64,000 nucleotides of DNA from Butyrivibrio fibrisolvens 16/4 (GTDB taxonomy: Bacteria > Bacillota > Clostridia > Lachnospirales > Lachnospiraceae): assembly GCA_000209815.1 (NCBI GenBank), contig FP929036.1, forward strand, positions 745,658 to 809,657. The letters are read 5' to 3'. The translations under genes and the position numbers were made by a program. Shown here piece after piece: positions 29,278 to 35,581 of the stretch. Positions within the stretch are counted from its first letter, which is position 1. Each line of letters begins with the position of its first letter. A model generated the notes under the pieces. That model made no database searches. It was given only the letters and a program-made list of their open reading frames with translations, and was not told the origin of the DNA.

Positions 29278-29964
29278 TTGAGTTTAGCAGAGAAGCTTGT
29301 AGAAGAGCTAAATTGCGAGACCGTCTTCACTATCCACGCTGGCAGCTTGGAAATTCCAATTATGGAATCAGTTGTTGTTACTTGGATTGTAATGGCAGTG
29401 CTTATCCTGTTGGCTGTGTTTTTGACATCGGGATTAAAGACACAAAACATCAGTAAGAAGCAGGCATTCGCAGAGCTAATTTACGAGAAGCTGAACGCCA
29501 TTGTCGGTGCTACTCTTGGAGAAGAAGGAAAAGCTTATACAGGCTACCTTGTAACAGTTCTTCTGTACATCGGTTTATCAAACATCATTGGCTTGTTCGG
29601 TTTCAAATCACCAACAAAGGATGTAAATGTCACAGCAGCGTTGGCACTCATGAGTATTGTACTAGTTGAGGCCGCTGGCATTTATCACAGAGGCGTTAAG
29701 AAATGGCTTCATTCATTTGTAGAGCCAGTTCCTATCGTAACACCATTCAACATTTTGGATGTATTCACAAGACCATTGTCACTGTGTATGCGACTTTTCG
29801 GAAATGTTCTTGGTGCATTTGTAATTATGGAGCTACTTAAAATAGTATGCCCACCAGTTATTCCTGCAGTATTCAGTTTGTATTTTGATTTATTCGACGG
29901 ATTACTTCAGGCGTACGTATTTGTATTTTTAACGTCGTTATATTTAAAAGAAGCTATTGAGTAA
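29278..29964 (+). CDS. atpB: ATP synthase Fo subunit a
   Basis: 228 residues with about five membrane helices. The essential Arg of the ion path is in SLCMRLFGNVLGAF. TTG start, justified by AAGGAGG eight bases upstream. The N-terminus is shorter than the E. coli subunit but usual for Clostridia. First gene of the operon; no atpI or atpZ precedes it. Confidence 0.93.
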   Translation: MSLAEKLVEELNCETVFTIHAGSLEIPIMESVVVTWIVMAVLILLAVFLTSGLKTQNISKKQAFAELIYEKLNAIVGATLGEEGKAYTGYLVTVLLYIGLSNIIGLFGFKSPTKDVNVTAALALMSIVLVEAAGIYHRGVKKWLHSFVEPVPIVTPFNILDVFTRPLSLCMRLFGNVLGAFVIMELLKIVCPPVIPAVFSLYFDLFDGLLQAYVFVFLTSLYLKEAIE

Positions 29965-29982: not shown

Positions 29983-30204
29983 ATGAACACATTAATCGCA
30001 GTTGGAGCAGGTATTGCAGTTGTAACAGGTCTTGGAGCAGGTATTGGTATCGGTATTGCAACAGGTAAGGCTTGCGAAGGTATCGCACGTCAGCCAGAGG
30101 CAGAGAGCAAGATTCAGAAGAACCTTATCTTAGGATGTGCCCTTGCAGAGGCAACAGCTATTTACGGTTTCGTTATCGCCCTTATGATTATGTTCGTATT
30201 ATAA
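29983..30204 (+). CDS. atpE: ATP synthase Fo subunit c
   Basis: 73-residue two-helix proteolipid. Polar loop ARQPEA, ion-binding Glu in CALAEATAIYGF. The helix-1 position that is Gln32 in Na+-binding rotors is Ile here (GIGIGIATGKA) and the Ser after Glu is Ala, so the sequence favours proton coupling. AGGAGG ribosome site. Confidence 0.95.
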   Translation: MNTLIAVGAGIAVVTGLGAGIGIGIATGKACEGIARQPEAESKIQKNLILGCALAEATAIYGFVIALMIMFVL

Positions 30205-30234: not shown

Positions 30235-30716
30235 ATGATTAACGTTTCTTTTTGGAATATATTTTTACAGTTCTAAATCTTCTTATCCTATTTGTTGCTT
30301 TTAGAATCGCATTCTTCAAGCCTATTGCAAAGATTATTGCAAAGCGCCAGGAAGAAGCTAATGAGATTTATGATAAGGCGGCAACAAAGGAGAATGAGGC
30401 CAAAGAGCTTGTAAAGCAGTACGAGGATAAGCTTGCTTCAGCAGAGACAGAAAAGAAGCAAATCATTTCCGAGGCAAGAAAATCTGCAGATGGACAGTAT
30501 CAGAAGATTCTTGAGGATGCAAAGGCAGACGCAAAGAACATTCATGATGCAGCTATTGCAGAGGCAAATAATGAGAAAAACAAGATTATTGCCAGTGCTA
30601 AGAAAGAGATTGCAGATATCGTAGTTGATGCAACTACAAAGGTTGTTGGTAGCAAGACAGGAGCTGATGTTGACAGCAAACTGTTTGACGAATTTTTAGG
30701 TAAAGCAGGTGAATAA
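30235..30716 (+). CDS. atpF: ATP synthase Fo subunit b (one-base frameshift)
   Basis: 160 residues after adding one T to the T5 run at 30262-30266. MINVSFWNI then continues as FTVLNLLILFVAFRIAFF (membrane helix) and a long charged coiled coil (KAATKENEAKELVKQYEDKL) forming the peripheral stalk. As printed, the frame from the ATG stops after 13 codons. A functional b subunit is expected since every other atp gene is intact. Confidence 0.9.
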
Positions 30717-30718
30717 AA

Positions 30719-32734
30719 GTGACAGAGAAATCTTTAAATTATGCCCGTGACCTACATAGCATAGGAAATGCCGAGGCTTATTTGCAGACTGCCGCTTCTA
30801 TTATTGAGGCTGTACCTGCAGTAGGCGAGGAGTTATCAGATCCTACAGTTGCCATCGCTAAAAAGCATGTGGTAATTGATAGCATCTTCCCTCACGAGAT
30901 TCGCAATTTCTTAAAGCTACTGTGTGATAACGGAGACTTCCAATTATTTAATGATATTAGAGCTGCATACAAGGATTCAATTGAAACTACTGACGAGAAG
31001 GTAAACAAGGCAAAGCTTCGCTATGTTACTGCACCTTCAGATGAGCAGCTTGCAGGCATCAAGAGATTCTTAGCAAAAGAATACTCAAATGATGATATTG
31101 AAATTGATTTAGTACAGGATTCTTCCCTTAAGAGTGGATTCATTCTTTCAGTGGGTACAAAGGAGTATGACTGGAGTCAGCAGGGACGTTTGGAGCAGTT
31201 TGCTACAAAAATCAACAAGGCTGTTGGTGTTTCTGCAGTTGATGAGAGCATCCTTTCAATCTTAAAGGCTAATGTTGAGGACTTTAAGCTTCAGGCCCAG
31301 GAAAAGGAAGTAGGTATTGTAAAATGGGTAGGTGACGGTATCGCCAATATCGATGGTATTGACCATGCATTCTATGGCGAGATTGTTATCTTTGATTGTG
31401 GTGTTAAAGGTATGGTTCAGGATGTACGCCGTGACGAAATCGGTGTTATCCTCTTCGGCCGTGATACAGAAATCAAAGAAGGTTCTAAGGTAGTTCGTAC
31501 AGGAAAGATGGCAGGTCTTCCTGTAGGTGATGGCTTCCTTGGAAGAATCGTCGATGCCCTTGGTGCACCTTTGGATGGACTTGGAGAAATCCCAGCTAGT
31601 GGATTCCGTCCAGTAGAGTGTCCAGCACCTTCTATCGTAGATAGAAAATCAGTTAGCCAGCCAATGGAGACAGGTCTTCTTTCAATCGATTCAATGTTCC
31701 CAATCGGTCGTGGTCAGCGTGAGCTTATCATCGGTGACAGACAGACTGGTAAGACATCAATTGCCACTGATACAATTATCAACCAGAAGGGCAAGGATGT
31801 TATCTGTGTATACGTTGCAATCGGCCAGAAGGCTTCTACTATTGCAAAGCTTGTTAATACACTTAAGGAGCATGGAGCTATGGACTACACAATTATCGTT
31901 AGTGCCACAGCATCAGATCCAGCTCCACTTCAGTACATCGCACCTTATGCTGGTACTGCACTTGCAGAGTACTTTATGTATTCAGGCAAAGATGTACTTA
32001 TTGTTTATGATGATTTATCAAAGCACGCTGTTGCATACCGTGCTATTTCACTTTTGCTTGAGCGTTCACCAGGACGTGAGGCATACCCAGGTGATGTATT
32101 CTACTTACATTCTAGATTGTTAGAGCGTTCAGCTAGAATCACACCAGAGGCAGGAGGCGGCTCAATCACAGCTCTTCCTATTATTGAGACACAGGCAGGA
32201 GATCTTTCAGCTTATATTCCTACCAACGTTATCTCAATTACTGATGGTCAGATTTTCCTTGAGTCACAGCTGTTCAATTCAGGACAGAGACCAGCGGTTA
32301 ACGTAGGTCTTTCTGTATCCCGTGTAGGTGGTGCAGCTCAGACTAAGGCAATGAAAAAAGCAGCAGGTTCTATTCGTATCGATCTTGCTCAGTACCGAGA
32401 GATGGAAGTCTTCACACAGTTCTCATCAGATCTTGATGATGCAACAAAGAGACAGTTGGCTCACGGACGTGCTCTTATGGAGTTACTTAAGCAGCCACTT
32501 AACAGACCATTCTCAATGGCAGAGCAGGTTATTATTCTTGTGTCTGCAAATGCACATATCTTCAGTGATTTGGACATTGCATCACTTAAGAAATTCAGAA
32601 CCGATATGCTTGATTATTTTGCTGCAGAGCATAGTGATATTATCAGCCAGCTTCAGTCATCAAAGGATTTATCAGATGATTTGAAGACAGCTATTATTGA
32701 GGCAGCAACTGAGTTCAAGAAGAATCAGGAGTAA
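30719..32734 (+). CDS. atpHA: Fused ATP synthase F1 delta-alpha subunit
   Basis: A single 671-codon frame. Residues 1-173 are a complete delta subunit (OSCP fold, starts KSLNYARDLHSIG). From ~174 a complete alpha subunit begins (DESILSILKANVEDFK helix, GIVKWVGDGIA), with Walker A GDRQTGKT at 339-346, Walker B-like VLIVYDDLSKHAVAYR and the C-terminal helical domain. No stop and no ATG, GTG or TTG in frame lies at the junction, so separate initiation of alpha is not evident. GTG start, 2 bases after atpF. Known alpha subunits contact delta by their N-terminal helix; the fusion makes this contact covalent. Confidence 0.93.
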   Translation: MTEKSLNYARDLHSIGNAEAYLQTAASIIEAVPAVGEELSDPTVAIAKKHVVIDSIFPHEIRNFLKLLCDNGDFQLFNDIRAAYKDSIETTDEKVNKAKLRYVTAPSDEQLAGIKRFLAKEYSNDDIEIDLVQDSSLKSGFILSVGTKEYDWSQQGRLEQFATKINKAVGVSAVDESILSILKANVEDFKLQAQEKEVGIVKWVGDGIANIDGIDHAFYGEIVIFDCGVKGMVQDVRRDEIGVILFGRDTEIKEGSKVVRTGKMAGLPVGDGFLGRIVDALGAPLDGLGEIPASGFRPVECPAPSIVDRKSVSQPMETGLLSIDSMFPIGRGQRELIIGDRQTGKTSIATDTIINQKGKDVICVYVAIGQKASTIAKLVNTLKEHGAMDYTIIVSATASDPAPLQYIAPYAGTALAEYFMYSGKDVLIVYDDLSKHAVAYRAISLLLERSPGREAYPGDVFYLHSRLLERSARITPEAGGGSITALPIIETQAGDLSAYIPTNVISITDGQIFLESQLFNSGQRPAVNVGLSVSRVGGAAQTKAMKKAAGSIRIDLAQYREMEVFTQFSSDLDDATKRQLAHGRALMELLKQPLNRPFSMAEQVIILVSANAHIFSDLDIASLKKFRTDMLDYFAAEHSDIISQLQSSKDLSDDLKTAIIEAATEFKKNQE

Positions 32735-32737
32735 GCT

Positions 32738-33748
32738 ATGGCAAGTACAAAGGAAATCCAGAATAGAATAAATAGTATTCAGGATACCATGAAGATTACA
32801 AATGCCATGTATATGATGTCCTCAATGAAGCTTAGAAAAGCTAAGCAGAAGCTGGCGGACACTGAACCATTCTTCGAAGCAGTACAGAGAGGTATCGCAG
32901 AGAATCTTGTGCGTTTCCCAGATATGCGTCATATCTACTTTGATAATCGAGTAGAGGATGAGCAGGAGGAAATCAAGCACCGTGGATTCGTAGTATTCAC
33001 AGGCGATAAAGGTATGGCAGGTGCATACAATCACAATGCCATCAAAATGACTCTCGACCGTATTGCAAATCTGAACAAAGATGAGTATATGTTGTTCGTC
33101 GTTGGTGAAGTTGGTCGTGCTTTCTTTATCAATAATGGTTACAACGTGGATGAAAACTTTAGATTTTCATCTAACAACCCATCAATGCACAGAGCCCGCG
33201 TCATATCAGAATATATGATTGAAAAATACAACCAGGGTGAGCTTGATAGAATCGATGTCATCTATACAAAGATGCTCAATTCAGTTACTGAGGAAACTTG
33301 CGTAGAGCGATTACTTCCTCTGAAGACACACAAGTTCATCAAGGAGCAGGCGAAGGAGATTCAGGAAGACGTTGATGGAACAGGAAAGGCTGCATCAGAG
33401 TTAAAGTCTGGTGTAAAGCACGTTCACTCTATTAACAGCTATGAATTGGAAGCTGTCACTAAGGGCGGAGATTCCTGGTATCCATTCTATCCATCACTTT
33501 CGGTAGTTTTGGAACATCTGGTACACAACAATTTTACAGGCTTCATTTATGGAGCATTGGTAGAATGTTCAGCCAGTGAGGAAAATGCCAGAATGATGGC
33601 TATGCAGTCGGCAACAGATAATGCAGAGGCAATTCTTCGTGAATTATCTATAGAATACAACCGAGTGCGTCAGGCGGCCATTACACAGGAAATTACTGAG
33701 GTAATCGGCGGAGCCAAGGCGCTTAAGAAGAAAAAGGCAAAGAGGTAA
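32738..33748 (+). CDS. atpG: ATP synthase F1 subunit gamma, extended
   Basis: 336 residues against ~285-290 in most bacteria. The N-terminal helix (MASTKEIQNRINSIQDTMKI) and the C-terminal helix (EYNRVRQAAITQEITEVIGG) are standard, so the rotor shaft is intact. Extra sequence of roughly 30-50 residues lies between residues ~195 and 248 (KFIKEQAKEIQEDVDGTGKA..). AGGAG overlaps the end of the preceding gene. Confidence 0.93.
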   Translation: MASTKEIQNRINSIQDTMKITNAMYMMSSMKLRKAKQKLADTEPFFEAVQRGIAENLVRFPDMRHIYFDNRVEDEQEEIKHRGFVVFTGDKGMAGAYNHNAIKMTLDRIANLNKDEYMLFVVGEVGRAFFINNGYNVDENFRFSSNNPSMHRARVISEYMIEKYNQGELDRIDVIYTKMLNSVTEETCVERLLPLKTHKFIKEQAKEIQEDVDGTGKAASELKSGVKHVHSINSYELEAVTKGGDSWYPFYPSLSVVLEHLVHNNFTGFIYGALVECSASEENARMMAMQSATDNAEAILRELSIEYNRVRQAAITQEITEVIGGAKALKKKKAKR

Positions 33749-35152
<1,404 letters not shown>

Positions 35153-35155
35153 TTT

Positions 35156-35581
35156 ATGGCATCATTATTTGATTTGAAAATTGTTGCCTGCGATGGAGTC
35201 TTCTACGATGGTAAATGCGAGATATTAGTCTTCCCAGGTGCAGACGGAGAAATGGCAATTATGAATCATCACGAGGTCTTTACAGGTATCGTGGAGATTG
35301 GAAATATCCGCTTCAAAACAGAAGATGGTGAAATGAGAAATGCCATCATTTCAGATGGACTTGTCTCTGTTTATCCAGATGGTTCTGTTAAGGTAGTGGC
35401 ATATTCTTGCGAACGTCCAGAGGATATTGATACCTTCCGTGCTCAGGAGGCCCTTGAGCGTGCTCAAGAGCAGCTTCAGCAGACTCAGAGCCGTATTGAG
35501 TACCAGATTTCTACAAATAACATGGCCCGTGCTATGGCTCGACTTAAGGGCGCAGGCGCGAAGAACCTTTATAAAATTTAA
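35156..35581 (+). CDS. atpC: ATP synthase F1 subunit epsilon
   Basis: 141 residues. N-terminal beta sandwich (FDLKIVACDGVFYDGKCEILVFPGADGEMAIMNHHE) and two C-terminal helices (ERAQEQLQQTQSRIEYQ) that inhibit hydrolysis in this family. Last gene of the operon, followed by a strong terminator. Confidence 0.95.
   Translation: MASLFDLKIVACDGVFYDGKCEILVFPGADGEMAIMNHHEVFTGIVEIGNIRFKTEDGEMRNAIISDGLVSVYPDGSVKVVAYSCERPEDIDTFRAQEALERAQEQLQQTQSRIEYQISTNNMARAMARLKGAGAKNLYKI

Follow-up and report, generated by a model that had tools for sequence, protein, structure and literature searches.

The window analysed here, a 64,000-nucleotide stretch of contig FP929036.1 from Butyrivibrio fibrisolvens 16/4, encodes the delta and alpha subunits of an F1Fo ATP synthase in one open frame. 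F1 normally holds three alpha subunits and one delta, and an earlier reading of this DNA made from the sequence alone (the sequence-only reading) saw in such a gene a problem of stoichiometry. How many copies of delta does the resulting enzyme carry, and how many stalks could they anchor?

The fused gene and its operon

The fused gene lies within an operon for a complete F1Fo ATP synthase, whose features are the following.

29278..29964, + strand: atpB, subunit a, 228 aa; counterparts stand at the same place in related operons
29983..30204, + strand: atpE, subunit c, 73 aa; Pfam ATP-synt_C; apparently proton type by motif (helix 1 without Gln)
30252..30716, + strand: atpF, subunit b, 154 aa from TTG; Pfam ATP-synt_B
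30719..32734, + strand: fused delta-alpha gene, 671 aa; GTG start 2 nt past the atpF stop
30719..30994, + strand: delta N-terminal domain, residues 1–92; six-helix bundle in the structure model, assigned with pLDDT and a dN/dS of 0.17
31007..31222, + strand: delta C-terminal domain, residues 97–168, from Pfam and the model; binds b in known enzymes
31223..31243, + strand: junction, residues 169–175; neither stop nor start codon; model confidence below 50 for residues 168–194
31244..32731, + strand: alpha subunit, with N-terminal helix (176–196), barrel, nucleotide-binding and C-terminal domains; TIGR00962 at 176–669
31733..31756, + strand: Walker A motif of alpha, GDRQTGKT, residues 339–346, from the translation
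32738..33748, + strand: atpG, subunit gamma, 336 aa; Pfam ATP-synt
33752..35152, + strand: atpD, subunit beta, 466 aa; from its frame and related operons
35156..35581, + strand: atpC, subunit epsilon, 141 aa; from its frame and related operons

All eight F1Fo functions are present in the order a-c-b-(delta-alpha)-gamma-beta-epsilon, with delta and alpha in one frame. Pfam places OSCP/delta at residues 8–164 of the 671 aa product (E 1.1e-19) and, in its alpha part, the alpha/beta barrel at 197–262, the nucleotide-binding domain at 319–534 and the C-terminal domain at 541–666. The alpha part scores 751.6 bits against TIGR00962 (atpA), above the curated cut-off of 484.45. Residues G140, F141, D151, W152, S153 and R157 of the delta C-domain are invariant across 34 fusions. 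The frame, open from 30719 to 32734, and its Pfam domains bear out the sequence-only reading, which had described a complete delta (N- and C-domains) and a complete alpha in a single frame.

The structure model of the window protein has six N-domain helices (residues 3–90), a mixed alpha/beta C-domain (97–168) and a long alpha N-helix from residue 176. Block means of pLDDT are 74–89 over residues 1–90, 78–82 over 101–150, and 68 and 51 over 151–170; pLDDT is below 50 at the junction (168–194), and much of alpha is poor. The two structure models (pTM 0.45 for this one and 0.43) are too weak for geometry, and the top Foldseek match, 9jc1_I, adds little to the sequence match because its rmsd is 22.7.

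Within the genus, dN/dS (Nei–Gojobori; rough values, with synonymous sites close to saturation) is 0.168 for the N-domain (70 of 153 pairs with usable dS) and 0.159 for the C-domain (77 of 153). The corresponding values are 0.466 for the linker between the two domains (111 pairs), 0.213 for the junction (63 pairs) and 0.053 for the alpha core (152 pairs). The ratios of the two delta domains indicate that both are kept by selection.

The genome of the window carries a second F-type operon (L048), with a separate delta and an alpha of 504 aa that is 55% identical to the window alpha. Its c subunit contains GPGIGQG and AETTG, a pattern (Gln in helix 1, Glu-Thr/Ser in helix 2) which we take to be the sodium motif of the c subunit. 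In the window c subunit, the helix 1 Gln of this motif is missing. By the c-subunit motif, the fused operon would encode a proton-type enzyme and L048 a sodium-type enzyme. Two reviews describe an H+-dependent and a Na+-dependent ATP synthase in P. ruminis (PMC11187502) and the detection of both activities in its membranes (PMC11026938, citing Schoelmerich et al. 2020). By the same motif, the fused operon may lie behind the proton-type activity measured in P. ruminis.

Two side observations concern neighbouring genes. An ATG opens atpF in seven of seven congeners compared. Its window counterpart, at 30235, is out of frame with the long atpF reading and runs for just 13 codons; that reading is open only from TTG 30252. 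The T-rich stretch at 30235–30270 looks one base shorter than in L098, so the difference may be a genuine change of start codon or an error in a homopolymer. The window gamma has 336 aa, as against 288 aa in L048; among the matches listed for related fused operons, the longest gamma frames run from 298 to 342 aa.

Distribution and descent of the fusion

Delta is canonically encoded apart from alpha, but a single open frame holds both in the window and in most genomes of its genus, Pseudobutyrivibrio. In a delta-family search of 61 genomes, 26 of the 29 genus genomes have a match in an open frame of 671–677 codons, and all 26 matches read as full delta-alpha fusions (18 + 8). The same search gave no match in G001, G007 and G020, whose completeness is 81–86%. 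A sequencing or assembly artefact is ruled out because the same fusion recurs in 26 of 29 genus genomes. Many other Lachnospiraceae also carry it, which settles the check in related genomes that had been suggested from the sequence.

Eighty named loci were selected for their similarity to the fusion, so their proportions do not measure prevalence: 62 hold the full fusion, 16 carry the delta C-domain alone ahead of alpha, and in two (L156, L168) the alpha frame is broken. None of the 80 gave a separate delta in a BLAST search with the window delta. All other subunits are seen in 15 of the 16 C-domain-only loci, and all but epsilon in the remaining one. An N-domain encoded between atpF and the fused gene was rejected for these operons, as the gap after atpF (−17 to +3 nt, 16 of 16) leaves no room. 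Cultured, named strains with natural candidates are P. ruminis DSM 9787, P. xylanivorans DSM 14809, Agathobacter ruminis JK623 and Eubacterium uniforme ATCC 35992. The E. uniforme fusion (L126:6210-8480, 756 aa) extends about 84 residues past the matched end of alpha.

In a family sample of 397 genomes, at least 73 frames run unbroken for 570 codons or more and have a match that begins in the delta C-domain, and Pfam also sees an N-domain in at least 27 of them. Judged by frame length, 19 further such frames labelled 'same class' occur in a class sample of 391 genomes (six of them, at 679 codons, in a single genus), and 11 labelled 'same order' in an order sample of 295. In a phylum sample of 348 genomes, 47 of the 50 'same phylum' matches contain a stop within the matched stretch; the matches without one are G1137, G1078 and G1246, the last being a short piece.

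Delta and alpha are separate in L049, L059 and L172–L179. The sequence-only reading had named relatives with clearly separate atpH and atpA, together with proteomics showing only separate subunits, as grounds for abandoning the fusion. Such separate genes do exist, but they belong either to the sodium-type paralogue within the same genome or to sister operons that are more distant, so the fusion stands. In the sister operons L172–L179, delta and alpha share a frame and are parted by just one or two stops, and the alpha of L174 and L178 has no obvious ATG start. G033 (L059, contigs C15 and C17) has four delta-family matches, several of them incomplete; an in-frame TAG interrupts the matched stretch of its two alpha-type matches.

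Trees were built from 131 alpha domains, thinned at 93% identity to 85 rows (four more, L061, L156, L168 and L171, were too short), and from alpha and beta together (84 rows, L187 dropped). For AU tests, 71 rows were kept; the further 13 dropped were ten rows that were long or unstable (L185 and L167 among them), two outgroup rows and L130, which has few columns. Separate rows are mostly basal in the proton-type clade of the alpha-only tree, but nested among fused rows in the alpha + beta tree. The two trees differ in where the root falls, and each was inferred rapidly under LG+G4 and drew long-branch warnings, so some lineages may have undergone fission.

Rows with the C-domain alone are dispersed over the alpha + beta tree, with 12 changes of state, seven of them forced by strongly supported branches. 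The AU test rejects C-domain-only rows as one lineage (p 7.6e-5, 13 versus 58 rows). It does not reject the separate-delta rows as one clade (p 0.65), while starred branches of the alpha + beta tree force at least two changes of the separate-delta state; one fusion origin is therefore allowed, yet unproven. These results are read as a single fusion followed by many N-domain losses, with the deep direction unsure.

A further joining of stator genes is seen in L185 (L185:3156-5492), from G120 (96% complete), the sole representative of its genus in the sample. Here b, the delta C-domain and alpha share one 778 aa frame, which sits between c and gamma, has a ribosome-site-like GGGAGG upstream, matches Pfam ATP-synt_B at 9–137 and is the only delta-family match in G120. 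This b-deltaC-alpha arrangement rests on that one genome, and in-frame TTG 169, GTG 212 and ATG 276 could restart translation. Separately, in L167:5907-8255 (782 aa) two delta N-domains in tandem precede the C-domain and alpha.

Fate of the chain and number of stalks

It is proposed that the single gene yields one delta-alpha chain for the proton-type F1Fo ATP synthase of the window's Pseudobutyrivibrio. Because F1 holds three alpha subunits, three copies of delta would be present in each F1. Each delta C-domain would sit at the N-terminal helix of its own alpha, giving every alpha an integral socket to which a b2 stalk could attach, and a single delta would no longer cap the number of stalks. 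Across a wide set of bacteria from gut and rumen, the stator anchor would be part of each of the three alpha subunits. A true fusion with three delta copies per F1 is the best reading. The stoichiometry problem raised by the sequence-only reading is upheld, and three deltas per F1 are the best supported of the options it listed. That the gene gives one polypeptide, that its delta C-domain sockets free the number of stalks and that more than one b2/a unit is probable in N-domain-less forms is judged, as a whole, somewhat probable.

The alternatives in which delta does not remain a working part of each alpha turn on the junction and on other delta genes. As had been claimed, the junction lacks a stop and an in-frame start: no ATG, GTG or TTG occurs in frame at 31215–31260, and the closest start codons in frame are a TTG at residue 158 (31190), upstream, and ATG 232, which falls within the alpha barrel. 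Internal initiation would also yield free alpha, giving an F1 of one delta-alpha and two plain alpha; TTG 158 of the window does have AGGG four bases upstream, and from sequence alone non-AUG starts are conceivable. However, residue 158 is Ile in all 17 aligned congeners, and a start at TTG 158 was rejected as not conserved. Over alignment columns 60–237, moreover, no ATG, GTG or TTG column ahead of the barrel is common to more than five of the 18 genus sequences. Synonymous divergence in 20-codon windows from residues 161, 171 and 181 is 0.56, 0.69 and 0.74 (mean 0.55, sd 0.10); being average or above, it argues against a conserved ribosome-binding or start signal at the junction. The hidden internal start, an option of the earlier reading, is thus disfavoured and is considered very improbable. 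Post-translational cutting into alpha and delta, which would give a normal enzyme and surplus delta, appears improbable too. The junction is modelled with low confidence and may be accessible, and residues 166–190 evolve faster than the alpha core (dN/dS 0.21 versus 0.05), but no long linker is present, as the last delta helix ends at 168 and the alpha N-helix starts at 176 (in the low-confidence region of the model). Furthermore, cutting a C-domain-only form would leave a short fragment with no N-domain by which to hold onto F1. The separate delta of the sodium-type operon might instead serve the fused alpha, whose own delta would then be vestigial. A delta-family (PF00213) search of 79 genomes found an unbroken fused frame in 68, stops in the frame in nine and fragments in two; 41 of the 68 also carry a separate delta of about 180–197 aa, G127 carries fragments of one, and G189 is ambiguous. 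Yet in 25 of the 68 (8 full and 17 C-domain-only; completeness 82–100%) PF00213 matches nothing but the fusion. A very divergent second delta could escape detection there, since even the fused C-domain scored too low to appear in G235, G032 and G096, which are among the 41. Purifying selection on the fused delta domains also speaks against a borrowed delta, and this explanation is scarcely credible.

A different objection accepts the fusion and three deltas, but holds that the enzyme has a single stalk, with one delta binding b2 with its N-domain in the pit and the other two idle. In its favour, the N-domain is retained under purifying selection in the genus (dN/dS 0.17), and Ueno et al. argue that only one stalk can form when an N-domain occupies the central pit (PMC12229609); both points weigh against extra stalks in the window form. 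Even the enzyme engineered by these authors averaged about two stalks, triple-stalk particles being rare in cryo-EM (PMC12229609). On the other hand, scattered fused lineages drop the N-domain yet keep the C-domain, which would be odd if two of three C-domains were useless, and it would presumably be costly for two alpha subunits to carry roughly 20 kDa of unused delta. A single-stalk enzyme is therefore regarded as unlikely, though less so than the alternatives above.

If, as preferred here, the sockets free the number of stalks, N-domain-less lineages would probably carry more than one b2/a unit, which would raise H+/ATP and allow ATP to be formed at low proton-motive force. For the window form, one to three stalks would be expected, with the N-domain as a plug or regulator, because the three N-domains would vie for a single site in the central pit and at most one fits there. 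Fermenters with little ion pumping would be expected to benefit from a higher H+/ATP.

With a single a subunit per enzyme, H+/ATP is set by c-ring size, and the natural fusions are candidates for breaking that rule. More tentatively, and with rather less than even confidence, Lachnospiraceae and other Clostridia may hold natural multi-stalk proton ATP synthases that arose from one ancient fusion and many discards of the N-domain, b being joined as well in G120/L185 (b:alpha 1:1). If so, these enzymes would trade protons for voltage through added a subunits rather than a larger c-ring, as would suit anaerobes at low proton-motive force. Because the many natural candidates include named cultured strains and intermediate stages, the question of natural multi-stalk enzymes is directly testable.

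Comparison with known ATP synthases

The N-ATPase (alternate F1F0) is encoded by an additional F-type operon in the cell and lacks delta. This identity was rejected for the window, as its alpha reaches 613.7 bits against a TIGR03324 cut-off of 750.5 and delta is present. In an NCBIfam scan, no model for the fusion was seen among the best 25 of 38 families, the top one being plain atpA. A fusion of b with delta is usually described as one per enzyme. It joins b to delta, unlike the window gene, and so poses no stoichiometry problem. The b-delta fusion of Gordonia and some Mycobacterium likewise joins neighbouring stator genes (PMC5709465); the available text of that operon survey reports the delta/b fusion and contains no delta/alpha fusion. 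Similarly, the words 'fusion' and 'fused' are absent from the available text of Hackmann and Firkins 2015 (PMC4478896).

The sequence-only reading knew of no described delta-alpha fusion; this is no longer current, as Ueno et al. 2025 (PMC12229609) engineered an N-domain-less one and note natural examples, so the principle and the natural N-domain-less case are already published. In the open-access literature searched, no report was found of the full-length fusion, its breadth in Lachnospiraceae, the repeated N-domain loss or the b-deltaC-alpha frame. Ueno et al. state that every ATP synthase so far has a single a subunit, and they guess that nature may also have broken this rule (PMC12229609). 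They list natural N-domain-less delta-alpha fusions, likely multi-stalk, from Acidaminococcus fermentans and under UniProt G4Q3K6 and A0A1I2C5T3 (PMC12229609). Like the window gene, these carry the delta C-domain on alpha in a native operon; by that paper's statement they lack the N-domain, whereas the window and 62 of the 80 similar named loci keep it.

In the engineered Bacillus PS3 FoF1 (PDB 9JC1), residues 2–104, the delta N-domain, were removed and the rest of delta was fused to alpha (PMC12229609). The resulting deltaDeltaN-alpha enzyme carried up to three b2 stalks and three a subunits, about two on average, with an H+/ATP of 5.8 versus 3.0 and an equilibrium proton-motive force of 68 versus 133 mV (PMC12229609). 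It also lacks the epsilon C-domain, and it differs from the window enzyme in that the latter keeps the delta N-domain, which is absent in 16 of the 80 named relatives. Multi-stalk assembly was measured in the engineered enzyme, and only predicted here for natural fusions. In a PDB search, chain 9jc1_I aligns to window residues 104–661 without a gap at the junction. The spacing from the Trp of delta EYDWS to the Gly of alpha EVG is 47 in both the window and 9JC1, and 45–56 in those 88 of 99 sequences that have both motifs (some genes counted twice, from two collections). The earlier suggestion that the end of delta joins the alpha N-terminal helix sensibly is supported. As in the engineered PS3 enzyme, the window delta C-domain is covalently joined to the alpha N-terminus with matching spacing, and the C-domain-only relatives have the same layout as that enzyme.
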